Positions 10,197-29,416 of a DNA stretch of 34,430 nt are shown here, piece after piece. Position numbers and translations under genes: made by a program. Location of the stretch: contig NW_020169342.1 in assembly GCF_000988165.1 (NCBI RefSeq), positions 1 to 34,430 of the forward strand, read 5' to 3'. This DNA comes from Vairimorpha ceranae. Its lineage: Eukaryota > Microsporidia > Nosematidae. Below the pieces are notes generated by a model. The model did no database searches. It was not told the DNA's origin and worked only from the letters and a program-made list of their open reading frames with translations. Within the stretch, counting starts at the first letter, position 1. The number at the start of each line of letters is the position of its first letter.

Positions 10197-10212
10197 GCTT
10201 CTGTAGCGCAAT

Positions 10213-10245
<33 letters not shown>

Positions 10246-10269
10246 AGAGTTCGAGTCTCTCCAGAAGCG
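10197..10269 (+). tRNA. tRNA-Asn (anticodon GTT)
   Basis: A complete 73-nt cloverleaf without intron. The acceptor stem is GCTTCTG/CAGAAGC with discriminator G at 10269. The D stem is GCGC/GCGC around AATGGTTA. The anticodon stem is TTCGG/CCGAA with loop CTGTTAA, giving GTT at 10230-10232. The T stem is GAGAG/CTCTC with loop TTCGAGT. All stems pair perfectly. The internal A and B boxes are therefore intact, and a T run for Pol III termination follows at once. CCA is not encoded, as expected in a eukaryote. Confidence 0.97.
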
Positions 10270-10438: not shown

Positions 10439-12172
10439 TTATTTACCTAATTTGTATGATAAAAAATATTGTAAATTTGTAGAAAACTTTTTTTGTCCTT
10501 CAATATCATTTTTATAGACTTCTATATTATTTTCATCAATGTAAATTATTTTATCAAATTTATTAATAAGTTCTAGATTATGAATTATCATCAAAACTGT
10601 TCGATCTTCCTGTTGTAAAATTATCTCTAAAATCTTTTTTTCAGACTCCTTATCAAGTGCTGCAGTGGGTTCATCTAATGCCATTATCTCCTTGTTTCTT
10701 AACATAGTACGCATTAATAAAATCTTTTGCTTTTCTCCACCACTTAATAACCTTCCTCTTTCTCCTACATTCGTATCAAAACCATTTTCGAGGTTCATGA
10801 AAACGTCATATAATCCAAACTCTTTACACAATGCAAAAATATCCTCGTCTGAAATACCAAAAGATCCGTATTTAATATTATATTTTACAGATTCATTAAA
10901 CAAAAATGTATTCTGTGGTATGTAACCTAATAAATTCCTATAAAATTCGTCTTTGATTTTTTTAATATCAATGTCATCTATTAAAATGCTACCTTTGTAA
11001 TCTTCATCAAATTTAAGCAGTAGTTTTAGTAATGTTGATTTACCACTACCATTTTTACCTATAATTGCTACTTTTTCTCCTTTGTATATTTCTAGATTTA
11101 TTTTATTAAAAATTTGTCTACTTTCATAACCAAATGACAAATTATTAAACTTAATACTTTCTTTAAATTCTGTAATCTTAAACTTATTATTCTCTTTTTT
11201 TATATCTAACATTGTATCATAAGTAGATCTTGCATTAATTATTGCTTGTGTATATCTAGTGTATAAGTAACCCAAGTTACTTAAATTAATAGTAACCGTA
11301 GATGTAATGGACATTAAATAAATGAGTTGGTTAGATGACATATTTTGAGATAATATTCCTGATATTCCTGCATAAATAATAAAAAAACTTTGTAAGAGAA
11401 AAATTGCTCTCTGAGATAAATTTAAAATGTACAGTGCTCTCCATAATCTGTTACTATTAGATGCATTAATTTTTAGAAAATGATCATATTCATCTACTTC
11501 AAGATCTGTAGTCCCAAAGGAGACGATTGTTTCATGATTATTTAATCCATCTTGTAGTTTATTACTAGATCTATTTTCAGAGTTATTAAGTTCTCTTCTA
11601 ATATTAGATCTCCATTGTGCTATCAATATAGTCACAGTCGCATAGCAAGAAACACAAACAAACATTATGAAGCCCGCAAGACCTCCCATATTTTTTATAA
11701 CTGCAATAAGGGCAAATAAAAGTTTAAGGCATATTGGAAGCAAGCTTGTAAGAAACACTTCAATAAGTTCACTTGCAGATTTTGATTTTCTATCTATTAT
11801 TGTTTGAATTTCTCCGCCACCTATGGTACTAAAATTTTTAGGTGAAAGAGAAATGAAGCCTTTGAATGTAGATTTTGCCGTATTTCTATAAATATATTGC
11901 ACTACACCTGTAAAAATAAATCCATTAAGTTCGGTCAATACAGCCACTAAGAGTGACTGTAACACAAATCTTTCAAGTGCTGTGTGTTCACCTTTTCGAT
12001 TTGCGATAGATTGATTAAGATTCTTTACTAATGTACTTATTTTTATCTCTAAAACAGTGTAAAATATAGTTAAAAATATTATTGGTACAATAACATATCG
12101 CAACATTCTTATTTTTAATAAATCATTGTAAATAATTTCTTTGATAATTTTTCTATTCGAAATTTTTTTCAT
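10439..12172 (-). CDS. ATM1-like mitosomal-type ABC half-transporter, copy 1 (577 aa)
   Basis: A half-size ABC exporter: an N-terminal membrane domain (about residues 20-320) is followed by one nucleotide-binding domain. Visible motifs are Walker A GKNGSGKST (G372-), signature LSGGEKQ (L476-), Walker B IMALDEPT (D500, E501) and the H-loop His in IIHNLEL. ATM1/ABCB7-type transporters work as homodimers in the mitochondrial inner membrane and export a sulfur-containing product needed for cytosolic Fe-S assembly. Microsporidia keep such proteins with their mitosomes. The segment GGGEIQTIIDRKSKS before the coupling region is shared, slightly changed, with the two other copies in this window. No cleavable targeting peptide is evident. 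It lies in tandem with copy 2 on the minus strand, 398 bp apart. Location in mitosome or another membrane is inference. Confidence 0.9.
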   Translation of the reverse strand: MKKISNRKIIKEIIYNDLLKIRMLRYVIVPIIFLTIFYTVLEIKISTLVKNLNQSIANRKGEHTALERFVLQSLLVAVLTELNGFIFTGVVQYIYRNTAKSTFKGFISLSPKNFSTIGGGEIQTIIDRKSKSASELIEVFLTSLLPICLKLLFALIAVIKNMGGLAGFIMFVCVSCYATVTILIAQWRSNIRRELNNSENRSSNKLQDGLNNHETIVSFGTTDLEVDEYDHFLKINASNSNRLWRALYILNLSQRAIFLLQSFFIIYAGISGILSQNMSSNQLIYLMSITSTVTINLSNLGYLYTRYTQAIINARSTYDTMLDIKKENNKFKITEFKESIKFNNLSFGYESRQIFNKINLEIYKGEKVAIIGKNGSGKSTLLKLLLKFDEDYKGSILIDDIDIKKIKDEFYRNLLGYIPQNTFLFNESVKYNIKYGSFGISDEDIFALCKEFGLYDVFMNLENGFDTNVGERGRLLSGGEKQKILLMRTMLRNKEIMALDEPTAALDKESEKKILEIILQQEDRTVLMIIHNLELINKFDKIIYIDENNIEVYKNDIEGQKKFSTNLQYFLSYKLGK

Positions 12173-12570: not shown

Positions 12571-14292
12571 TTATTCGTTGTTTAAAATATCTGCAAAATA
12601 CTTTGAATTTTCTTCAAGTTTTTTGTTAATGTCTTCTATCATTGTTACCTCATTACCATTTACAAATAAAATTTTATCAAACAAAGCCAATAATTCTAGA
12701 TTGTGTACAATTATTACAAAAGTATGGTACTTAAATTCATTAAAAATATATGTCATAGTTTCTAGTTCACTCTTTTTATCTAGTGCTGAGGTTGGCTCGT
12801 CTAATAAAACGATCTCTGAATTTTTAAGCAATGCACGCATCAGCATAATTTTTTGCCTTTCACCACCAGATAAAAATCTTCCGCGTTCACCGACCGATGT
12901 GCTAAACCCATCTTTAAATTCCTGTATAGACTCTAATACACCTATTTTTTTGGCTAATTCTAAAACTTCTTTTTCTGTTACGTTTTTAGTCCCGTAAAAT
13001 ATATTGTATGTCACAGTATTATCGAATAAGAACGTGTTTTGTGTTGCATATGATATTAAACTTCTGTAACTTCTATCCGAAATATTATCTATTTCTGTAT
13101 CATCAATTAATATATCTCCATCATATTTATAAAATTTCATTAACAATTTTATTATTGTACTTTTACCTGTTCCATTTTTTCCTATAATAGCAACACGCTC
13201 CCCTTTATTAATAACGAAATTGGCATTCAGTAAAATAGGCTTATTTAAATAACTAAAAGATACATTTCTAAATTCTAGCTTTTCATTAAAATCTATCAGT
13301 CTTATTTTATCAGTTTGTGTATCCTCTTTAAACTCGTAATATCCAGACTTTGCATTTAAAAATCCTTGTACATATCTTGTGTATAGCATTCCCATTTCGC
13401 TCAACGAATTTGTCAACGTTTTACTAATCGAAATATAAAAGACTAACTGTTGAGAGGATAATTTAATCGGAAAATATCCAAAAGATCCTAATGTGATAAT
13501 AATAATTGCCTGTATCGCAAATGTCATTTTTTGTATATATAAAAGAGAGAACAAAATTCTGTGAGACTTTACCCCAAAATATTCTACCGGTTTTTGATTT
13601 TCATCAAAATATGTAATAGTTTCTTCTTCCATATTATAGGCTTTAATTGTTTCATGATTAGCTAAAAAATCTTGTAATTTATTCGATAATTTATCCTGTG
13701 ACTTATTATATTGTCTTCTAATATTGTTTCTCCATATTGAAAATACAAATGTAAAATACACATACAAGGCACTTGTAGCCAACATTACGTAGAGTGCATC
13801 TCTTCCCAAATTTTTATATACTGAGAAAAACGACATAATAACTACAATACAGGTTGGTACGGCCGAGAGAGTAGTTAGTTCTAGTATGTCACCATATGCT
13901 CTACTTTTCCGCTCTATAATCATTTGTATCTCTCCACTTCCTATTTTGTTAAAATTTTCTAAGTTTAATGAAATGTAATGATAAAATGCTTCAACTCCAA
14001 CAATTTTATATAAAAATTGTATTGGCCCGCTAAACACAATATCATTAATTTGTCTTAATACTATTGATGAAGTTAAAAATAAAATATATTTAAATATACT
14101 TTTTCCTGCATTTATTTTATTTTCAAAATCTTCTGCAATTCTTTTTGATATGTTACTTGCCTGAACTTCGAGATAACAAGCTATAATTGTAGACAGTAAT
14201 ATGGGAAACATTACGTACCTTATATAGGAAATATTGTAACAATATTTTACAAATGTATCATATAAAATTTCATAATTGGTTTTTTCCTTCAT
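12571..14292 (-). CDS. ATM1-like ABC half-transporter, copy 2 (573 aa)
   Basis: It has the same architecture as copy 1: an N-terminal six-helix-type membrane domain and a C-terminal ATPase. Walker A is GKNGTGKST (G371-), the signature LSGGERQ (L474-), and Walker B IVLLDEPTSALD (D498, E499). His in IIVHNLELL is the H-loop. The family motif appears as GSGEIQMIIERKSRA and the intracellular-loop segment as NHETIKAYN, as in the other copies. All catalytic residues are present, so an active transporter is expected. I chose ATG 14292 (MKEKTNYEILYD). The frame extends 12 codons upstream without another ATG, and AACCCTAATG puts the CCC signal 2 bases before this start. The shared features with 10439-12172 and 20061-21770 indicate ancient duplicates, already much diverged. 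Confidence 0.9.
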   Translation of the reverse strand: MKEKTNYEILYDTFVKYCYNISYIRYVMFPILLSTIIACYLEVQASNISKRIAEDFENKINAGKSIFKYILFLTSSIVLRQINDIVFSGPIQFLYKIVGVEAFYHYISLNLENFNKIGSGEIQMIIERKSRAYGDILELTTLSAVPTCIVVIMSFFSVYKNLGRDALYVMLATSALYVYFTFVFSIWRNNIRRQYNKSQDKLSNKLQDFLANHETIKAYNMEEETITYFDENQKPVEYFGVKSHRILFSLLYIQKMTFAIQAIIIITLGSFGYFPIKLSSQQLVFYISISKTLTNSLSEMGMLYTRYVQGFLNAKSGYYEFKEDTQTDKIRLIDFNEKLEFRNVSFSYLNKPILLNANFVINKGERVAIIGKNGTGKSTIIKLLMKFYKYDGDILIDDTEIDNISDRSYRSLISYATQNTFLFDNTVTYNIFYGTKNVTEKEVLELAKKIGVLESIQEFKDGFSTSVGERGRFLSGGERQKIMLMRALLKNSEIVLLDEPTSALDKKSELETMTYIFNEFKYHTFVIIVHNLELLALFDKILFVNGNEVTMIEDINKKLEENSKYFADILNNE

Positions 14293-14294
14293 TA

Positions 14295-14297
14295 GGG
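14295..14297 (-). promoter_or_regulatory. CCC start signal of ABC copy 2
   Basis: Minus strand AACCCTAATG: CCC ends two bases before the ATG at 14292. This supports 14292 rather than a start further upstream. Confidence 0.5.
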
Positions 14298-14842
14298 TTT
14301 TTTTAAAAAAACAAATAATAACAAACAAAAAAATCTTAAATTAAATAAAAATTTATTTTCTTATAATTAAAATATTTGACAAATAAAACTTATTATAGCT
14401 CTAAATAAAGAAAACGAAATATTTTTTGCAATTTTATTTCCTTGCTTTTGTATCTAAAACTAAAATTGCAGTTTTTCTAATATCTACAACTTATTTTCAA
14501 ATCTAAATTTTTATCTATGTAAATGTGTTTTAATACACTTCTCGCAGCAACGTATTAATTTATAGTTATATCGTTTCTACAGAGTCATAAATTAAATTAG
14601 TAAAAGCACCTTAAAATTTATCGAAAAAAACGTTAAATTTTTAAATAAACAATTTTAATTAAATAATATCAAGACATAAAGGATTATATTTACATGTGTT
14701 GACAAATCTTTTTAGACTTCATTGTGTAGCTAAGTCTAAAATGTAATTCCTGGCTATTCTAAATCTACTATTACATTTTATCTTGCATGCTTTTTACTTT
14801 AACAGAATCAATAGAGAAGCATAGATATAGATTAGTAAACTA
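14298..14842. other. AT-rich intergenic stretch
   Basis: This lies between the start of ABC copy 2 and the 3' end of PMS1. I see no gene, repeat or RNA structure that can be supported. Confidence 0.5.
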
Positions 14843-16939
14843 TTAAACCAAATCAATTTCTTCAACTACCATAAAGGTTGGTCTACCATGTGGACATTTC
14901 CAGGGTTTTTCTAAGTCCTTCAATCTTTTTACAATTTTCTCTAGTTTAGCTTTATTTAATGAGTCACCCACCATTACACTCATTCTACAGGCTTTTGATG
15001 CCATAATTTTCTGAATTTTAGTCAGGCCCTCTCCCCCATTTTTAAAATTATCTAATAGCTCATAAAAATCATTTAAATTAAATTCTTCTCCTTTAAAAAC
15101 CGGCACAGTTAGCAGTTTCATATTTTCTATGTCAAATCCATAGATGGAAAAACTTACAATATTTTCTTCTACAAACAGTTTGTCTATCGGCGACAACTTT
15201 AATTCAATTGGCACTAAAACTTTTTGTTTTAATATTTTTGTATTTTTCTTTATATTTTCATAATTAAATATTTCATCTGCCGCATGTTGATCAACAATTA
15301 TCAAGTATATTTTATCATTCTTAACCAATCGCGTAATAATAAATCCTTTGTTGAACTGTCCAATAATTTCCATGTCAAAAAAATCATTTTTTTTTAGAAC
15401 TAAAGAAATTTCGCATTGTTGCACTTGCTTGATAAAATCATATGCTGTTTCTTGTAAGCAGATTGTTTTTCCACTGCTTTCGATGTTAAAATTTTCATTT
15501 GAAGGAGAAACTGGTACTTCATAAATAGGCTTTACTTCCGTTTCCTTGACTTCAAATTCTTTGTTTTCATAACTGAGTGAAGATTTAAATTTTTTTGTCG
15601 TTGGCGAATTAACGTAAGAACTTTTACAATTTATATCAGAAAAAGGAGATGACAACACATTTTGCTTTACATCCATTATTTTATTATCTACTAAATCTAC
15701 CACAACCGCCTTATTTTCCTGTACCATTAATGAATTATTTGGCTGAGAGACTAAATTTGTGTCACTTATATATTCTTCCTCCAACAAAGCTTCTGTTTCA
15801 TTTTCCAGAGATTTATTAATTTCTTCTGCTATGTAATTATCCAGCATCTCTTGTGTACTATCGTTTGTATCTTGTAACGATACAACATTAATGATTTTCT
15901 CTTGAGGCCTAAAATTTGATACATCCTGTTTGTTTTCAACCTTGATTAATCTCCCATTTTCAGATATTTTTTTATTTGTTGTGTGATTGTTCTTAAAGAC
16001 CATTTGATTACTTAAAAAGTTAGTTATCTCTTTTTTAATTTTACCAATTATCTCATCTTCATTTTCAAATAAAATTTCGCTTTTAGTAGGAGATATATTA
16101 AAATCAATTGGACATTTTAAAACCAAATAAAACAGCGGCAACCCTTCCTGAAATAAATTGTAAGTACTTTTTATCTCTTTTGATATTTTTTTTGAGGTAA
16201 CAAATCTTTTACCAAAATAAACTGTTGATTCTTCCTTGTCTTGATTATTTGGAAACATAAAGATAAAAAAATCAGGCATATCCTTTATTAAACATTCATC
16301 ATAAATGTTGTTAAACTTTGATTTACAATATTCTAGAATATTTTTATATCCACATCCATTAAAAATAGTCGTACCTTTAAATTTAACTTGAAAATGTACA
16401 TCATATACTTTAACATAAGCCTCTACCAATTTAATTATTTGTTTAACATCCTTCGTTAAAGATTTTTTATTAAGCTTTTTTCTTAATATACAATTATTGA
16501 ATATATTTGTAACATCTACCGTTGTACCTATTTCTCTTGGGCAAACAGATATATGTCCTGTGTTTATATTTTTTTTATAACCAATTAAATTGTTTTTATG
16601 TCTTGAGGTTATTTCTAAACTACACATGTTTTTAATAGAACATAAGGCCAGTCCTCTGTATCCACAATAAATATTTGTAGAATCGGTGTTTAATCCCAAT
16701 ACAAAATACGTAGTTAGTTCTTTGGATGTATATCCTTCATTTCCTACATCTTTAAGGTCCAGTATACCTGTTCCATTATCTTCAACTCTGATCAATTCAT
16801 CGTCTACAAAGATCTTTATTTCCGTGGCATTTGAATCTAAGGAATTTTCTATCAGTTCCTTCACTATTGTATATGTATTTTGAATATACTGTTGTGACTT
16901 TATAAGTTCAGAAGTTTTTTGATCTAAATTTTTTATCAT
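14843..16939 (-). CDS. PMS1: PMS1-type MutL homologue, mismatch-repair endonuclease (698 aa)
   Basis: It partners MLH1 in MutL alpha and nicks DNA during mismatch repair in the nucleus. The N-terminal GHKL ATPase shows VKELIENSLDSNA (Glu28, Asn32), DNGTGI (D54-) and GYRGLAL (G93-). The last is the GFRGEAL box with its Glu replaced by Leu. A long Asn/Glu/Ser-rich linker follows. The C-terminal domain has the endonuclease motif DQHAADEIFNYE (D550-), matching DQHA-x2-E-x4-E, then ACRMSVMVGD and CPHGRPT (C682-). These mark it as PMS1/PMS2-type rather than MLH1. The first real ATG is 16939; the frame extends upstream only through a TTG. It is transcribed divergently from SPC25, with a possible E2F-type site in the shared promoter. 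Confidence 0.93.
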   Translation of the reverse strand: MIKNLDQKTSELIKSQQYIQNTYTIVKELIENSLDSNATEIKIFVDDELIRVEDNGTGILDLKDVGNEGYTSKELTTYFVLGLNTDSTNIYCGYRGLALCSIKNMCSLEITSRHKNNLIGYKKNINTGHISVCPREIGTTVDVTNIFNNCILRKKLNKKSLTKDVKQIIKLVEAYVKVYDVHFQVKFKGTTIFNGCGYKNILEYCKSKFNNIYDECLIKDMPDFFIFMFPNNQDKEESTVYFGKRFVTSKKISKEIKSTYNLFQEGLPLFYLVLKCPIDFNISPTKSEILFENEDEIIGKIKKEITNFLSNQMVFKNNHTTNKKISENGRLIKVENKQDVSNFRPQEKIINVVSLQDTNDSTQEMLDNYIAEEINKSLENETEALLEEEYISDTNLVSQPNNSLMVQENKAVVVDLVDNKIMDVKQNVLSSPFSDINCKSSYVNSPTTKKFKSSLSYENKEFEVKETEVKPIYEVPVSPSNENFNIESSGKTICLQETAYDFIKQVQQCEISLVLKKNDFFDMEIIGQFNKGFIITRLVKNDKIYLIIVDQHAADEIFNYENIKKNTKILKQKVLVPIELKLSPIDKLFVEENIVSFSIYGFDIENMKLLTVPVFKGEEFNLNDFYELLDNFKNGGEGLTKIQKIMASKACRMSVMVGDSLNKAKLEKIVKRLKDLEKPWKCPHGRPTFMVVEEIDLV

Positions 16940-16974
16940 AATTAATTTATAAGGCAAAGCTTTTAAATAAATTG

Positions 16975-16983: not shown

Positions 16984-17171
16984 AGATGATTTGAGAGGGA
17001 AAATTAAACGTTTATATTATACAGTTAAAGCAAATTATTGCTAAACTCTAGATATTTAATTTATCAAATTTTTAAATAATGATTTTATCAGTGTCAAGTT
17101 TTTAAGAGCATTTTTAGCAAAAAAGATTTGAAAATTATTTGTTTATTTTTTTTTTTTTAAACCTTCTTCTT

Positions 17172-17879
17172 ATGCATAAATTATCTGAAGAAATGAATAA
17201 CATAGAAAAAATTAAAAACATTATTAACGACATAGAATATGAATTTGAAACACAGAAAAATGAAATAGAAAAAGCGATTACATCTTTAAAAGATTTAATA
17301 AAAAATGAAAGATTTGATTTCGAAAATAAAAAGTTAAAATCAAATAAAAAATACGCAAATTTAAAAGAATTGTACAACAAGTTATTAGATGAAAAAAATT
17401 ATAACTTAACACTTATTAATAATGATCAAAATGACTTACTAGCAATTGAAAATGAAAATTTCGATTTGAGAGGGCAGATAGAAAAACAAGAAATAAATAA
17501 TGCAGAGCTGCGTAGATCTCTTGAACATAAAAAAGTATCGGCAATTGATAGCAAAAAGAAATTAGATTTATTATACAAAAGTAATCAGACAAAAGAATCA
17601 AAATTAATTAGTAAAGTTAGTGAGTGTAAAAAATATTTAGGATTGGATTTTAATGTAGTGGAGGGGAATAAGATTAAGGTTTTATTTAATAAATTTTGTA
17701 AAGATGAAACATTTGAATGTTATGTAGTTTTAGATTTAAGTGATGGATATAATATAATTGATATTTATCCAAAGGTAATAAACATAGAAAGATATTCTAC
17801 TAATCTAAAGGACAAAACAAGGTTTTTCGAGTTGATTCAAGATGTTAGGAAAATATTTGTTAAAGAATATTGTAAATGA
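17172..17879 (+). CDS. SPC25: SPC25, kinetochore NDC80-complex subunit (235 aa)
   Basis: Residues about 5-150 form a Lys/Glu/Asn-rich coiled coil. Residues about 155-235 form a small globular domain (KKYLGLDFNVVEGNKIKVLF through RFFELIQDVRKIFVKEY). Its pattern (LGL at the start, hydrophobic strands, final FxxLIxDVRKxF helix) matches the Spc25 C-terminal domain. With SPC24 it anchors NDC80-NUF2 to the inner kinetochore. The frame can be read from a TTG at 17139, but that adds an implausible poly-Phe/Leu leader encoded by a T run. The first ATG is 17172. Its 3' end faces TAF8 46 bp away. Confidence 0.82.
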   Translation: MHKLSEEMNNIEKIKNIINDIEYEFETQKNEIEKAITSLKDLIKNERFDFENKKLKSNKKYANLKELYNKLLDEKNYNLTLINNDQNDLLAIENENFDLRGQIEKQEINNAELRRSLEHKKVSAIDSKKKLDLLYKSNQTKESKLISKVSECKKYLGLDFNVVEGNKIKVLFNKFCKDETFECYVVLDLSDGYNIIDIYPKVINIERYSTNLKDKTRFFELIQDVRKIFVKEYCK

Positions 17880-17925: not shown

Positions 17926-18438
17926 TCATTTTTTATGCAAATAATTTACAAATGAAGGTAAGGATCCCGAGCCTTTGATAAGCCTTAGTAAATTTTTTTC
18001 TGCTCTTAAACTCTGCTCCAGTCTTGTTTTAACTTTTTGAGATCTGTCTTCTTTCTCTTTATTTTTAATATACGTTTGCCTAAATGTATGTGTAGGCGGA
18101 AAAGAAGGCATAAAATCGTAGATGTGAATATATCTTTCTAGATATGTAGAGAGTGGACTTTTAAATTCTTCAATATTATTTTTTTGTACAGAAGGATACA
18201 ACACAGGTTTGATGTTGTTTTCAATTTTTAGATTTTTAAAATTCAACAAACTTACAAAGTCCCAAATATTAGCACATTGTTTTCTAGAATGAAATGTATG
18301 AGAATTAAGGATTTTGAGAATGCTAGATATATACAAATCTAATGCTTCATTTATAAGCAAAACTGCCTTTTTATCAGCCAGATCAAATCCATTGCAGTTT
18401 AGAAACTTTACAATTATGTGATTTATAATTTCTTTCAT
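17926..18438 (-). CDS. TAF8: TAF8-like TFIID subunit (170 aa)
   Basis: The N-terminal histone-fold-type helices (residues about 1-70, including GFDLADKKAVLLINEALDLY) fit the bromodomain-associated fold. They are followed by IYDFMPSFPPTHTFRQTYI (about 106-124), which is the diagnostic TAF8 C-terminal motif (F-x-P-x-F-P-x-x-H-T-[FY]). TAF8 pairs with TAF10 in TFIID, the general transcription factor of RNA polymerase II. At 170 aa it is much shorter than animal or yeast TAF8, keeping little beyond the two conserved blocks. The start is ATG 18438: upstream the frame has only a TTG, and TACCCTAAAATG places CCC 4 bases before it. It precedes TFG1 in the same direction, so two basal transcription genes are neighbours. 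Confidence 0.8.
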   Translation of the reverse strand: MKEIINHIIVKFLNCNGFDLADKKAVLLINEALDLYISSILKILNSHTFHSRKQCANIWDFVSLLNFKNLKIENNIKPVLYPSVQKNNIEEFKSPLSTYLERYIHIYDFMPSFPPTHTFRQTYIKNKEKEDRSQKVKTRLEQSLRAEKNLLRLIKGSGSLPSFVNYLHKK

Positions 18439-18442
18439 TTTA

Positions 18443-18445
18443 GGG
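18443..18445 (-). promoter_or_regulatory. CCC start signal of TAF8
   Basis: Minus strand TACCCTAAAATG supports the ATG at 18438. Confidence 0.45.
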
Positions 18446-18650
18446 TAATTTTTTGAAGAAAAAGACAAACATTTTTAAGTTTTTTTAATAAAATAATTGT
18501 TTACAGTGGATGTAACATTTTTTAGTCCTTAGCTATCCAATTTAATATTTAACAATAATAAATTTTAGATTTATAAATAATTTACTATTTAAGGACAAAA
18601 ATAATGGCAATGCGAAATATCATTTTATACTTTTAAAGCATGTTTATTGT

Positions 18651-20060: not shown

Positions 20061-21770
20061 ATGTTAGAAAAAAAATCTATTTATGGTAGTGATATTAGTA
20101 TTATGAAAGACCTGATTGTAGAATATGTTATTTCAAAGCCCTTTATTCGAACATTTGTCATTTACATAATTTTTGGGACATTTGCAGTTTGTACATTTAA
20201 TGTTTTAACAGTTGAAGCTACCCGGAAATTGACTAGTGATATTACAGATAATAAAGATCTTAGTCAAAGTCTTTTGTATTTTGCAGTTTTGACAATTGTA
20301 TCAATTACAATGTCAGAACTTAACAATTTTATATTTGTTACACCCGTTCAACATGTATTCAGACTGACAGGAAAAAATTCATTTAAAAATTTTATAAATA
20401 TGGAACTTAGTAGATACAATAAAATAGGATGCGGTGAAATACAAACAATAATAGACCGAGAAAGTAAAGCAATAAGTGAATTGATCGAAGTTTTATTTGT
20501 TAATATCATAAATATTTTTTTTACAGTTATATTGGCGTGTTCGTCAATTTATACAAATTTAGGGTTGACAAATATGTTTATTATTTTAATCACATTATTA
20601 GTTTACATCCTTGCAACTGCGAAAATAGTTCATTGGCGTACAGGAATAAGAAAAGAATATAATTGCGCACAACAAAGATGCTCAAATCATTTACATGATT
20701 CTTTAATTAATCATGAGACTATACTAGCATATAAAACAGAAGAAGAAGAATCGCTTAAATATGAAAAATATGTTTCTGAAGTAGAATCAGAATGTAACAG
20801 AATCTGGAGATCTCTTAGTTTTTTATACCTTGTAAATAAGATAATTTTTGCTTTACAGTGTTTTATAGTTATAACATTAGGAAACTATGGAATATTAACA
20901 GCAAAACTAAGTGCCAGGGATGTTGTATTTTATATTGGCATTAATAGAACATTGTATTCAAGTTTTGGACAATTAGGGTTCTTTTACTCACGATATACAC
21001 AAGCAATCTTAAATATAAGAACATCTTTTAAACCAGAGCTTATAAAAGAAGAACCAAATTTAGTAGATGTTAATGAATTTAATAATGATATAAGATTAGA
21101 AAATGCATCATTTAATTATTACTCCAAAAAAATTTTAACGGACATAAATATTTTAATTAAAAAAGGTGAAAAAGTAGCTATTATTGGAAAAAATGGATCG
21201 GGAAAAACATCTCTTATAAAGATGATTATGAGATTTGAAAATTATGGGGGAAATATTTATCTAGATAATCGAGACATAAAAGAAATTTCTAATAGTTCAT
21301 ATAGATCACTTATATCATTTGCACCACAAACCTCATTTTTGTTTAACGAAACGGTTTATTATAATTTAACATATGGAAAAGAAATATTTGATAAAGAAGA
21401 AGTTATAAAAATCAGTAAAAAACTTTGTGTACACGATTCTATAAACAACCTAGAGGATGAATACAACACACATGTTGGAGATAAGGGACATAAGCTTAGT
21501 GGTGGAGAAAGACAAAAAGTAATTTTGTTAAGGTCGGCACTAAAAAATTCTCCTATTATAATTTTAGATGAGCCAACGGCCGCATTGGACAAAAAAGCTG
21601 AATATGAAATTCTTAAAAGTCTAATCTCCAACAACTTAGAGAAGACAATAATTATTGTTTTACATAATTTAGATTTACTCCACTTATTTGATAAAGTGCT
21701 AAGTATTAAAAACAAAACTGTATCATTACATAAGATAGAAGAAAATATTATTTCTACATTAAACTTATAA
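20061..21770 (+). CDS. ATM1-like ABC half-transporter, copy 3 (569 aa)
   Basis: The membrane domain (about residues 20-325) is followed by an ATPase domain. Motifs are Walker A GKNGSGKTS (G376-), signature LSGGERQ (L479-), Walker B IIILDEPTAALD (D503, E504) and the H-loop in IVLHNLDLL. The family segment GCGEIQTIIDRESKA and the loop segment NHETILAYK match copies 1 and 2. An intact ATPase site suggests function. It could form homodimers or heterodimers with its paralogues, which cannot be decided from sequence. The first ATG is used; a second ATG at 20103 would remove 14 residues. It lies on the opposite strand from copies 1 and 2 and 5.8 kb away, so this is a dispersed cluster, not a fresh tandem array. 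Confidence 0.9.
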   Translation: MLEKKSIYGSDISIMKDLIVEYVISKPFIRTFVIYIIFGTFAVCTFNVLTVEATRKLTSDITDNKDLSQSLLYFAVLTIVSITMSELNNFIFVTPVQHVFRLTGKNSFKNFINMELSRYNKIGCGEIQTIIDRESKAISELIEVLFVNIINIFFTVILACSSIYTNLGLTNMFIILITLLVYILATAKIVHWRTGIRKEYNCAQQRCSNHLHDSLINHETILAYKTEEEESLKYEKYVSEVESECNRIWRSLSFLYLVNKIIFALQCFIVITLGNYGILTAKLSARDVVFYIGINRTLYSSFGQLGFFYSRYTQAILNIRTSFKPELIKEEPNLVDVNEFNNDIRLENASFNYYSKKILTDINILIKKGEKVAIIGKNGSGKTSLIKMIMRFENYGGNIYLDNRDIKEISNSSYRSLISFAPQTSFLFNETVYYNLTYGKEIFDKEEVIKISKKLCVHDSINNLEDEYNTHVGDKGHKLSGGERQKVILLRSALKNSPIIILDEPTAALDKKAEYEILKSLISNNLEKTIIIVLHNLDLLHLFDKVLSIKNKTVSLHKIEENIISTLNL

Positions 21771-25692: not shown

Positions 25693-26880
25693 ATGAATAC
25701 CTTTAGTAAAAAGTTAGAAAGAGATAGAATACATTCACATGTCTTAAAAAAGGATACATTGGATTTATTAAACCAAAAAAATTATAAAGAAGCATTATTA
25801 AATATAGTAAATCTTCTTAAGCTAAATAAACCAGGTCAGACTTTTTTAATAAGAGGACCTAGTGGGTGCGGTAAAACAGCTTTGATTGCAGATTTATATA
25901 AAGAACAATATTTAATAAATTCTATCAGTGCTGTAGAACTACAAAGCTTTAATCTTAGTAAGGCAGAAGCAGTTACACAGGCTGTTCGTAAATCAATAAG
26001 ATTACGTATTAAAGAAATTATTAAGGTAATAGAAGGTGAAATAACAAATCTTACGTCTTCTAAATTAAGCCTTAAGACTTTAGATATGGAATCGACTTTC
26101 GAGATTGGCGATAAAATGTTACAAGAAATACAAAAAGAAAAAATTGTCATAGGTGATGTAGTTCGTATAATAAAAGAGAGAGGAAAGATAATCAAATTGG
26201 GTATTAGTGCATCAAAAATGGATTCAGAATTTATTGGCGATATTCTTTCGGTGCCATGTCCTGAAGGTGAAATGTTTAAAACAATTGAAGATGTCCAATT
26301 AATGACTTTACACGATATTGATTGTTTAAACAATAAAACACATGGTTATTTAGAAATTTACAATGGCGAAACGGGTGAAATTAGTAGTGAAGTAAGAAAA
26401 GAAGTTAATAAAAGAGTAAAAAAGTGGATATTAGAAGAAAAAGTAGTGCTTGAGAGAGGATTATTGATTATAGATAATGTTCAAATTCTTCATAAAGATT
26501 ATTTTTACTTATTTAATAATTCCATTGAATTTACTTTTGATCCTGTAATTCTTATGATCGAGAATGTTACAGACACTTTACAGAGTTCAACTGGTTTATT
26601 AAGTTCAGCCTTTGTTATAAATGTAGACCAAATAAATGATAATGATTTAAAAGATGTTATACGGGCACATATCGAAACAGAAAATGTTGATTTTGACTCA
26701 AATGTTCTTGACTATTTAAATGATCTCGCATTGTCATATGGCATTAATTATGCTATTAATATTATTGATCTATATGTTGTAAAGAGTCTTAAACAAGCAA
26801 ATACTAAAATTGCATTAGAGGAAGTTAAAACATTAGTTAGCTTGTTTCTTGATGTAAATCGTGCTTGTGATACTAATTAA
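25693..26880 (+). CDS. RVB2: RVB2/reptin-like AAA+ protein with lost catalytic residues (395 aa)
   Basis: Alignment by eye to RuvB-like proteins is continuous. Walker A is GPSGCGKTAL (G55-). SKAEAVTQAVRKSIRLRIKE and EVIEGE-type sequence lead into the OB-fold insertion (about 110-215), followed by VQLMTLHDIDCLNNKTHGYL. This last fits RVB2 rather than RVB1. In the ATPase core, Walker B reads LLIIDNVQIL (D261, N262), so the catalytic Glu is Asn. The arginine-finger segment DLLDR has become GLLSS (Ser305). The sensor-2 LRYAI reads INYAI (Asn352). Walker A and the sensor-1 Asn (N291) remain. RVB1/RVB2 rings serve INO80/SWR1-type remodellers, R2TP and snoRNP assembly. Here ATP binding without hydrolysis is likely. 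The frame is intact with a normal C-terminal LFLDVNRA, so it is not a pseudogene. The usual family length is about 450 or more. Confidence 0.85.
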   Translation: MNTFSKKLERDRIHSHVLKKDTLDLLNQKNYKEALLNIVNLLKLNKPGQTFLIRGPSGCGKTALIADLYKEQYLINSISAVELQSFNLSKAEAVTQAVRKSIRLRIKEIIKVIEGEITNLTSSKLSLKTLDMESTFEIGDKMLQEIQKEKIVIGDVVRIIKERGKIIKLGISASKMDSEFIGDILSVPCPEGEMFKTIEDVQLMTLHDIDCLNNKTHGYLEIYNGETGEISSEVRKEVNKRVKKWILEEKVVLERGLLIIDNVQILHKDYFYLFNNSIEFTFDPVILMIENVTDTLQSSTGLLSSAFVINVDQINDNDLKDVIRAHIETENVDFDSNVLDYLNDLALSYGINYAINIIDLYVVKSLKQANTKIALEEVKTLVSLFLDVNRACDTN

Positions 26881-27583: not shown

Positions 27584-29416
27584 ATGAATGAAATAAACAT
27601 TGTAGAAAAAATTTTTAAGGATTTGGATTTAAGTGAAATAAAAGAAAGTGAAGAAGGAAGAATTTACTCAATTAGTGGACCAGTTGTAATTGGTAGAAAT
27701 ATGTCAGGATGTGCCATGTATGAATTGGTCAAAGTAGGAGAAGAAGGTTTGATAGGTGAGATTATAAAAATAGAAAATGATAAAGTCACTATACAAGTTT
27801 ATGAAGAAACAAGCGGTCTTTGTGTCAATGATATAATTGTTAGAACTGGGAAACCTCTTTGCGCAGAACTGGGCCCAGGTATGTTTGAAAATATATATGA
27901 TGGTATACAAAGACCTTTAAAGGATATACATCATGTCACAAATAATATTTATATTCCACGTGGGATTGATGTACCGGCTCTTGATAGGAAAAGAGAGTAT
28001 GATTTTATTCCTACTGTTGAAGAGGGGCAGATTGTTTTTGGTGGTGACATTATCGGTGAGACATTTGAAAATTCGCTGATTAAAACTAAAATATTAGTGC
28101 CACCAAAAATGACAGGAAAAATAATTTACATAGCATCTAAAGGTGTTTATACACTGCAAGATGTTGTAGCAGAAATAGAAAGTAATGGAATAAAAAAAGA
28201 AATTTTTATGTTTCATAGTTGGCCTGTTAGAATACCAAGACCTATTAAGGATAAAATAAATGCATCACATCCTTTGTTTACCGGGCAAAGAATCCTTGAC
28301 TCTTTGTTTCCATGTGTACAGGGTGGTACTACTGCCATTCCAGGTGCATTTGGATGTGGTAAAACTGTAATATCACAATCATTATCTAAGTATTCAAATT
28401 CTGATGCTATTGTTTATGTTGGATGTGGAGAAAGAGGAAATGAAATGAGTGAAGTTCTTATGGAATTTCCAAAACTAACAGTAGAAGGAAAAACAGATAG
28501 TATTATGAAAAGAACTGTTTTAGTAGCAAATACTTCAAATATGCCTGTGGCTGCAAGAGAAGCTTCTATTTATACTGGAATTACTATATCAGAATTTATT
28601 AGAGATCAAGGTATGAATGTTTCAATGATGGCAGATTCTTCTTCTAGATGGGCCGAAGCTTTAAGAGAAATAAGTGGTAGATTAGCAGAAATGCCAGCAG
28701 ATAGTGGTTATCCTGCATATCTAGCTGCTAAGCTTGCATTTTTTTATGAAAGGGCTGGTGCTGTTACTTGTTTAGGTTCACCTAATCGAACAGGATCTGT
28801 TACAATAGTAGGTGCCGTATCTCCACCTGGTGGGGATTTTAGTGATCCTGTTACATCTGCAACCTTAGGAATTGTTCAAGTATTCTGGGGATTAGATAAA
28901 AAACTTGCACAAAGAAAGCATTTTCCTTCTATAAATTGGAATTTAAGTTATTCTAAATATTTTTCTAGTTTAAAACCATATTATGAAAAGATAGATCCTA
29001 ACTTCATTAGACATCGTACTAAATGCAAAGAAATTTTGCAAATGGATGATGATTTATGTGAAATTGTTCAACTAGTAGGAAAAAATGCATTATCTGAAAC
29101 AGAAAAATTGATTTTAGATATTTCAAAATTAATAAAAGAAGATTTTTTGCAACAAAATGGATATTCTGATTACGACAGGTATTGCCCATTCTTAAAAACA
29201 AGATTAATGCTAAAAAATATTATTGAATATTTTGAAAAAGCCCAAAAAATAATTGCTGGAAGTAAACACACTTGGGCTGACATAAAAAAACAGACTGAAG
29301 ACATTTTTTACCAATTAATGAAAATGAAATTTTTGATGCCTGATCAATACTTAGAAAAAAAACTTGATGAGTTGTATTTAGAAATAACAAAAAGTTTTAA
29401 TGAGTTTTCTAAATAA
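27584..29416 (+). CDS. VMA1: V-type ATPase catalytic subunit A (610 aa)
   Basis: The ATP-hydrolysing subunit of the V1 sector, which acidifies organelles with the V0 proton channel. Features in order: an N-terminal beta barrel ([22 protein letters not shown]); the non-homologous insertion with [18 protein letters not shown]; the P-loop GAFGCGKT (residues 254-261); the catalytic-Glu block [47 protein letters not shown]; and ERAGAV. The C-terminal helical domain is complete. Length agrees with the family (about 610-620). There is no intein in the P-loop region, unlike the baker's yeast gene. The high conservation contrasts with the fast-evolving neighbours. Its 3' end lies 21 bp from the 3' end of the opposite-strand gene. 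Confidence 0.98.

Follow-up and report, generated by a model that had tools for sequence, protein, structure and literature searches.

The RVB2 (RuvB-like 2, reptin) gene of Vairimorpha ceranae, a microsporidian of the honey bee, is located at 25693..26880 on the forward strand of contig NW_020169342.1, within a stretch of 34,430 nucleotides that was analyzed as a whole and is hereafter called the window. The present analysis identified its product as RVB2 by descent but, to judge by its sequence, this protein fails as an active ATPase. Its only detectable partner, RVB1, is degenerate at the hydrolysis sites too, and losses in both paralogues extend to related lineages. The RVB1/RVB2 ring is almost universal. 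We consider it probable that in V. ceranae the two proteins form a ring that would bind nucleotide, would be defective in its hydrolysis and would serve mainly as a stator of INO80. The gene and the relevant parts of its product are:

25693..26880, + strand: RVB2 (RuvB-like 2, reptin) gene of V. ceranae, 395 amino acids, ATG start, predicted to be hydrolysis-defective
25732..25740, + strand: N-terminal His-x-His (H14, H16), nucleotide-holding histidines, kept
25855..25878, + strand: Walker A P-loop GPSGCGKT, residues 55-62, kept, including K61 and T62
26020..26253, + strand: Domain II (insertion region), residues ~110-187, boundaries set by analogy
26473..26478, + strand: Walker B D261-N262, Asp kept, Asn instead of the catalytic Glu
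26563..26565, + strand: sensor-1 Asn291, kept
26605..26607, + strand: arginine-finger position, occupied by Ser305 according to the alignment
26746..26748, + strand: sensor-2 position, occupied by Asn352, which starts a predicted helix (351-368)

The original prediction, made from the sequence alone, had described an intact RVB2 frame in which three catalytic residues are replaced, and this description was borne out. The frame starts with ATG, spans exactly the interval listed above and exceeds the Pfam cut-offs of both the P-loop domain (TIP49, 206 bits for a cut-off of 23.8) and the AAA-lid (TIP49_C, 30.8 bits for a cut-off of 24.5). The probability that a stop-free run of 395 codons arises by chance is 8e-18 with the composition of the gene and 4e-16 with that of the window. 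Among solved structures in the PDB, the nearest is yeast RVB2 (209 bits compared to 111 bits for RVB1), and the predicted structure of the protein matches RVB chains, its residues 1-25 being modelled with low confidence. Both the pairwise HMMER alignments with yeast and human RVB2 and a 54-row MAFFT alignment place N262, S305 and N352 at the positions of the Walker-B Glu, the arginine finger and the sensor-2 Arg, respectively. In human RUVBL2, the corresponding motifs are given as Walker B D299-H302, sensor 1 M326-N329, trans-Arg finger R353 and sensor 2 T397-A402 (PMC6137109). The P-loop and Asn291 of sensor 1 persist, as had been noticed, and the His pair and Asp261 are kept too; a nucleotide-holding role of the N-terminal histidines of RVBs is described in PMC7707835. 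In the aligned Nosema/Vairimorpha rows, including V. ceranae RVB2, a conserved loop that connects sensor 1 to the finger is shortened.

The three replacements are not single base errors, since their codons (AAT, TCA and AAT) are each at least two bases away from any Glu or Arg codon. They are found in 14/14 near-identical RVB2 variants (the V. ceranae protein and 13 others, 99-100% identical), all of the same length. The loss of the three catalytic residues, as read from the sequence, is confirmed. An artefact (sequencing or assembly error, misalignment, or a paralogue mistaken for an RVB2 that is absent from the assembly) would find some support in the assembly itself, which consists of 116 contigs (4.56 Mb) and may be incomplete. 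However, an error would have to introduce at least two base changes per site in a manner on which all 14 variants agree, the two alignment methods concur, V. necatrix and other lineages show losses at these sites, and no other RVB2 exceeds the cut-off in the genome; we regard this explanation as hardly credible. The search of the whole assembly for TIP49 genes found only two above the family cut-off, this RVB2 and one RVB1 (contig C49, locus L001), besides two weaker matches below it (22.7 and 19.8 bits). A second, canonical RVB2 that could rescue the function was looked for in this way and not found.

The original prediction had tentatively assigned all hydrolysis to RVB1 and asked whether this partner keeps its catalytic residues. 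It does not. The V. ceranae RVB1 (400 amino acids) carries Glu274-Asp275 at the Asp-Glu of Walker B, Lys324 at the finger position and Thr369 at sensor 2, and retains H10, H12, K68, T69 and the sensor-1 residue N304. One RVB1 variant of V. ceranae (P0041) has G67D within the P-loop. The arginine finger of RUVBL2 works in trans according to PMC6137109; therefore, in an alternating ring, the RVB1 pocket would receive Ser305 of RVB2 and the RVB2 pocket would receive Lys324 of RVB1. PMC4320070 reports RVB1 mRNA of Nosema (Vairimorpha) ceranae, detected by reverse transcription-polymerase chain reaction (RT-PCR) in infected cultured cells from 5 minutes to 72 h. The primers given there for a 'ruvb-like 1 DNA helicase' match the RVB1 locus exactly (L001 1665-1689 and 1964-1987), with a product of 323 bases, the printed size.

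The survey of relatives covered 174 TIP49 rows, i.e., 173 proteins from three protein searches (with, for RVB1, the best 120 of 3228 matches) and V. ceranae RVB1. The five hydrolysis sites read D-E-N-R-R in 124 of them. The 50 other rows include (i) 23 Nosema/Vairimorpha RVB2 (the 14 near-identical variants and nine others), (ii) 14 full-length Nosema/Vairimorpha RVB1 (eight from V. ceranae and six others) and two truncated ones (P0042 and P0058), (iii) eight archaeal or archaeal-like proteins, and (iv) three fragments or chimeric models (P0050, P0068 and P0165). P0058 is labelled Papilio xuthus and is 98% identical to a Nosema-type RVB1 (P0047); it probably stems from microsporidian DNA contaminating a butterfly assembly. 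P0050, an RVB1 model from Pistacia vera, contains a repeated internal block and is apparently a chimera.

We call two sister groups 'Vairimorpha-type' and 'Nosema-type'; the only species that the database names in them are V. necatrix and N. granulosis. The RVB2 tree comprises 27 rows, without P0030, which is truncated, and P0011, a near-duplicate; its eight strongly degenerate members group in a single clade (support 100/99) adjoining P0020-P0022. In the RVB1 tree (24 rows, excluding P0035), the five degenerate rows likewise form a clade (100/100), adjoining P0047-P0049. Hydrolysis residues are lost in 8/8 RVB2 and 5/5 RVB1 rows of the Vairimorpha-type clade, so the loss noticed in V. ceranae does recur in sister lineages: V. 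necatrix RVB2 (P0015) and the lineages P0016-P0019, P0023 and P0026 have losses at the sites lost in V. ceranae, with replacements that differ by lineage. The finger position is occupied by S, T, N or Y and sensor 2 by N, T, K or S; P0001 and P0015 have Asp-Asn and the sensor-2 Asn in common, and P0026 retains an acidic Walker-B pair, Glu-Glu. The Nosema-type group includes an intact species, N. granulosis (RVB2 P0020 and RVB1 P0048 have 5/5 hydrolysis residues); the remaining rows of the group, P0021 and P0022 for RVB2 and P0047 and P0049 for RVB1, show partial losses. The RVBs of N. granulosis and Encephalitozoon are, like those of V. ceranae, short microsporidian members of the family but, unlike them, have the five hydrolysis residues. 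Parsimony gives a minimum of two changes between the intact and degenerate states in each tree, one of them being then a putative regain in N. granulosis; if this regain is excluded, we read three losses from the trees. RVB1 and RVB2 could be paired by species in V. ceranae, V. necatrix and N. granulosis only; the pairs P0021-P0049 and P0022-P0047 are guesses from tree position and were not counted.

These data bear on an asymmetric ring, in which a dead RVB2 would hold nucleotide and RVB1 would slowly hydrolyze for both. RVB1 has acidic residues (E274 and D275), the sensor-1 Asn304 and a basic K324 at the finger, the replacements in RVB2 are less conservative than in RVB1, and Asp occupies the Glu position in archaeal TIP49 rows. 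However, RVB1 is devoid of its own sensor-2 Arg and of the Walker-B order, and its Walker-B pairs are inconsistent among relatives (ED, EE, DD, DK and DN). Furthermore, the finger that RVB2 would offer in trans is a Ser (Thr, Asn or Tyr in relatives). RVB1 is an unlikely sole hydrolyzer because its pocket would see this Ser; its acidic Walker B leaves room for slow turnover. RVB1 as the only working ATPase was abandoned as the leading interpretation, RVB1 itself being degenerate at Walker B, finger and sensor 2, and is kept as a rival on account of these acidic residues. Alternatively, the ring could hydrolyze ATP through substitute residues (the Lys finger, the Glu-Asp swap or others at different positions), and might do so only if a partner drives it. 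Some conservative replacements (Arg to Lys, Asp to Glu) and the strict retention of the nucleotide-binding residues would suit such a rewired catalysis, but the RVB2 replacements are mostly non-conservative (Ser, Thr, Asn or Tyr at the finger; Asn, Thr, Lys or Ser at sensor 2), and their variation from one lineage to another is more in keeping with loss than with a new, fixed mechanism. We judge this decidedly improbable.

To quantify the contrast between binding and hydrolysis residues, each paralogue was scored against 16 outgroup rows. Among the cells of the eight degenerate RVB2 rows, 48/48 for binding, 10/40 for hydrolysis and 336/504 other invariant ones are retained; this sum leaves out the Nosema-type P0020 (5/5 hydrolysis residues), P0021 (3/5) and P0022 (3/5, with 5/6 for binding). 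Seven RVB1 rows, including the Nosema-type P0047 and P0049 and leaving out P0048 (5/5), retain 41/42 binding cells (the odd one being Thr to Ser), 14/35 hydrolysis cells and 515/714 other invariant cells. For V. ceranae RVB1 and RVB2 taken together, 12/12 binding, 3/10 hydrolysis and 114/165 other residues are kept (p = 0.0007 for hydrolysis compared to binding and p = 0.016 for hydrolysis compared to the others); since the rows share ancestry, pooled p-values are indicative only. V. ceranae RVB2 alone gives no proof, with 2/5 hydrolysis residues kept compared to 41/63 other outgroup-invariant columns (not significant, p = 0.35) and p = 0.061 against binding. The signal comes from the contrast between binding and hydrolysis, from the partner RVB1 and from the relatives, not from this protein alone.

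Constraint along the protein is uneven. Within the degenerate RVB2 clade, mean pairwise identity is highest in Domain II (0.70) and residues 188-250 (0.68), lower in residues 1-109 (0.44) and from Walker B to the finger (0.41), and lowest in the lid (0.30). Compared to four Encephalitozoon-group rows, Domain II is as similar in the degenerate RVB2 (0.50) as in N. granulosis (0.49), whereas from Walker B to the finger the values are 0.35 and 0.58, respectively. RVB1 follows the same order more weakly (within the clade, 0.66 for Domain II and 0.50 from Walker B to the finger). Domain II of RVBs recruits partners, as stated in PMC7707835. Such a pattern would be expected if the protein were retained to bind partners and to adopt a nucleotide-dependent shape rather than to turn over ATP. 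At the level of residues, the probable inability of RVB2 to hydrolyze ATP that had been proposed at the outset is supported, and the retained nucleotide-binding residues are consistent with the suggested role in nucleotide binding and scaffolding. A relaxed decay, with both RVB genes heading for loss in a shrinking genome and no important function left, would account for the long branches of the Vairimorpha-type clade and for the alteration of about a third of the otherwise invariant columns. It fits poorly with RVB2 frames that are full-length in all eight lineages and equal in length in 14/14 near-identical variants, with 48/48 binding cells and a Domain II that is 0.70 identical across long branches, and with the RVB1 mRNA seen by RT-PCR from 5 minutes to 72 h (PMC4320070); we hold it to be very unlikely.

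The V. ceranae genome encodes an INO80 ATPase of 858 amino acids (642 bits to INO80 compared to 428 to the next family; DBINO, 75.8 bits) with intact P-loop, DEAQ box and arginine-bearing motif; this intact motor was established in V. ceranae itself. Its residues 538-687 (~150) remain unaligned between the two motor blocks (RecA lobes). In other INO80 proteins, this is the position of the insertion to which the RVB ring binds. Genes for Arp5 (best PDB match, 76 bits) and Ies6 (best PDB match, 30 bits; YL1_C, 44 bits) are also present, as are actin and one further actin-related frame. Besides INO80, the SNF2 matches (at least seven) include a CHD1-like protein with a chromodomain, XPB, a RING-containing protein and two proteins without telling domains, presumably of the Mot1 and SMARCAL types. 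No SWR1-like ATPase is among these listed matches, nor do they include a clear ISWI or SWI/SNF ATPase; the set of remodellers looks reduced. Seven histone-fold matches were partly examined for H2A.Z as a marker of SWR1, and no claim is made from them.

Searches for other partners gave mostly negative results. HSA and YL1 had no match in the genome profile search, for which the control genomes were prokaryotic and provided no true positive control (YL1 was silent in them). PIH1, a subunit of R2TP, had no match at E<=1, but the controls were again prokaryotic, with one match below the cut-off, and a divergent gene could be missed. PAPA-1 (Ies2) matched nothing in the genome nor in the prokaryotic controls, and zf-HIT had no match above its cut-off in the genome profile search. 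The sole FAT-domain match is a Tra1-like protein (contig C21, locus L036), so V. ceranae may have few further proteins of the PIKK type.

The explanation that we favor, a non-hydrolyzing ring serving as INO80 stator, would run as follows. The sole detectable RVB2 would still assemble with the sole RVB1 into an alternating, hetero-hexameric ring, and this ring would hold nucleotide through the retained His pair and P-loop. Its hydrolysis apparatus would be abnormal in both pockets, that of RVB2 with Asp-Asn and Lys324 of RVB1 as trans finger, that of RVB1 with Glu-Asp, the sensor-2 Thr and Ser305 of RVB2. The ring would be a nucleotide-stabilized, essentially non-cycling scaffold, offering the Ino80 motor and Arp5 a fixed frame within INO80, and it may have given up, wholly or in part, the uses thought to depend on the ATP cycle (R2TP-type assembly, SWR1). 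A role suggested for RVB hydrolysis, in PMC7707835, is to free the ring from its partners. With few clients left, there would be no need to recycle the ring, and hydrolysis could be lost. A broader version, in which the ring of the whole Vairimorpha-type clade would be hydrolysis-free in both subunits, with bound nucleotide as a structural cofactor only and as a permanent stator of INO80, the losses having occurred in parallel in the two paralogues and partly again in the Nosema-type clade, seems to us evenly balanced between right and wrong.

Several points weigh against the stator explanation. In RVB1, the two Walker-B positions each carry a carboxylate, and the finger is a Lys. Asp also stands at the Walker-B Glu position in eight archaeal or archaeal-like TIP49 rows (three from named archaea, the others assigned by likeness). 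Glu to Asp as proof of a dead ATPase was dropped, since these rows carry Asp naturally and the replacement alone proves nothing. The same rows (P0033, P0034, P0166-P0170 and P0173) have the finger Arg in 8/8 cases and the sensor-2 Arg in 7/8, P0173 having a gap. According to the literature, ATP binding or hydrolysis is essential to all reported RVB activities in cells (PMC7707835), and RAD51 foci need RVB ATPase activity, in a context involving YY1 and INO80 (PMC5573869). INO80 is annotated in Encephalitozoon (PMC10158259), and our comparison of clients with microsporidia having intact RVBs covers this one case, taken from the literature; since Encephalitozoon has INO80 together with canonical RVBs, the retention of INO80 alone cannot explain the loss. 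N. granulosis has kept its hydrolysis residues, which the explanation does not account for. The absences of PIH1, HSA, YL1 and PAPA-1/Ies2 rest on profile searches with prokaryotic controls and are weaker than the presences. Finally, a Tra1-like protein is present, and other RVB-linked complexes are possible.

The other features identified in the window are:

10197-10269, + strand: tRNA-Asn
10439-12172, - strand: half-size ABC transporter (membrane and ATPase domains), profile match
12571-14328, - strand: half-size ABC transporter (membrane and ATPase domains), profile match
14843-16957, - strand: MutL-type mismatch repair protein
17139-17879, + strand: Spc25
17926-18468, - strand: TAF8 C-terminal domain protein
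20061-21770, + strand: half-size ABC transporter (membrane and ATPase domains), profile match
27584-29416, + strand: V-type ATPase A-subunit-like protein

Three half-size ABC transporters thus lie within one 34-kb window.

Among the best-ranked matches in the open-licence literature, no report of a loss of RVB hydrolysis residues in microsporidia was found. If the stator explanation is true, this clade would provide a natural separation of the scaffold function of RVBs from their ATPase function and a test of what ATP splitting is for. A clade lacking hydrolysis residues in both subunits but retaining the binding residues, the partner-binding domain and, as established for V. ceranae, an intact INO80 motor would reveal which function can be dispensed with, and with what clients. 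It would also offer sequences tested by evolution for separating nucleotide binding from hydrolysis, in a graded series from intact (N. granulosis) through partial (P0021, P0022, P0047 and P0049) to advanced loss (Vairimorpha-type).

Compared to yeast and human RVB2 (RUVBL2, reptin; TIP49 and TIP49_C), V. ceranae RVB2 is devoid of the catalytic Glu, the finger Arg and the sensor-2 Arg, and has a shortened loop after sensor 1 and a short C-terminus. In other AAA+ rings, such as ORC, dynein and RFC, some subunits bind nucleotide without hydrolyzing it and, as far as is known, at least one active subunit is retained. Unlike in these rings, both kinds of subunits are degenerate in the putative RVB ring of V. 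ceranae. The closest parallel is recombinant yeast INO80 with RVB hydrolysis mutants, in which, according to PMC8163841, a ring without ATP hydrolysis sits inside INO80 and positioning activity is kept. However, those mutants were engineered and studied in vitro, whereas the loss in V. ceranae is natural, concerns both subunits, is clade-wide and is known from sequence. Overall, this is a variant of the known RVB machine and not a new kind of machine.
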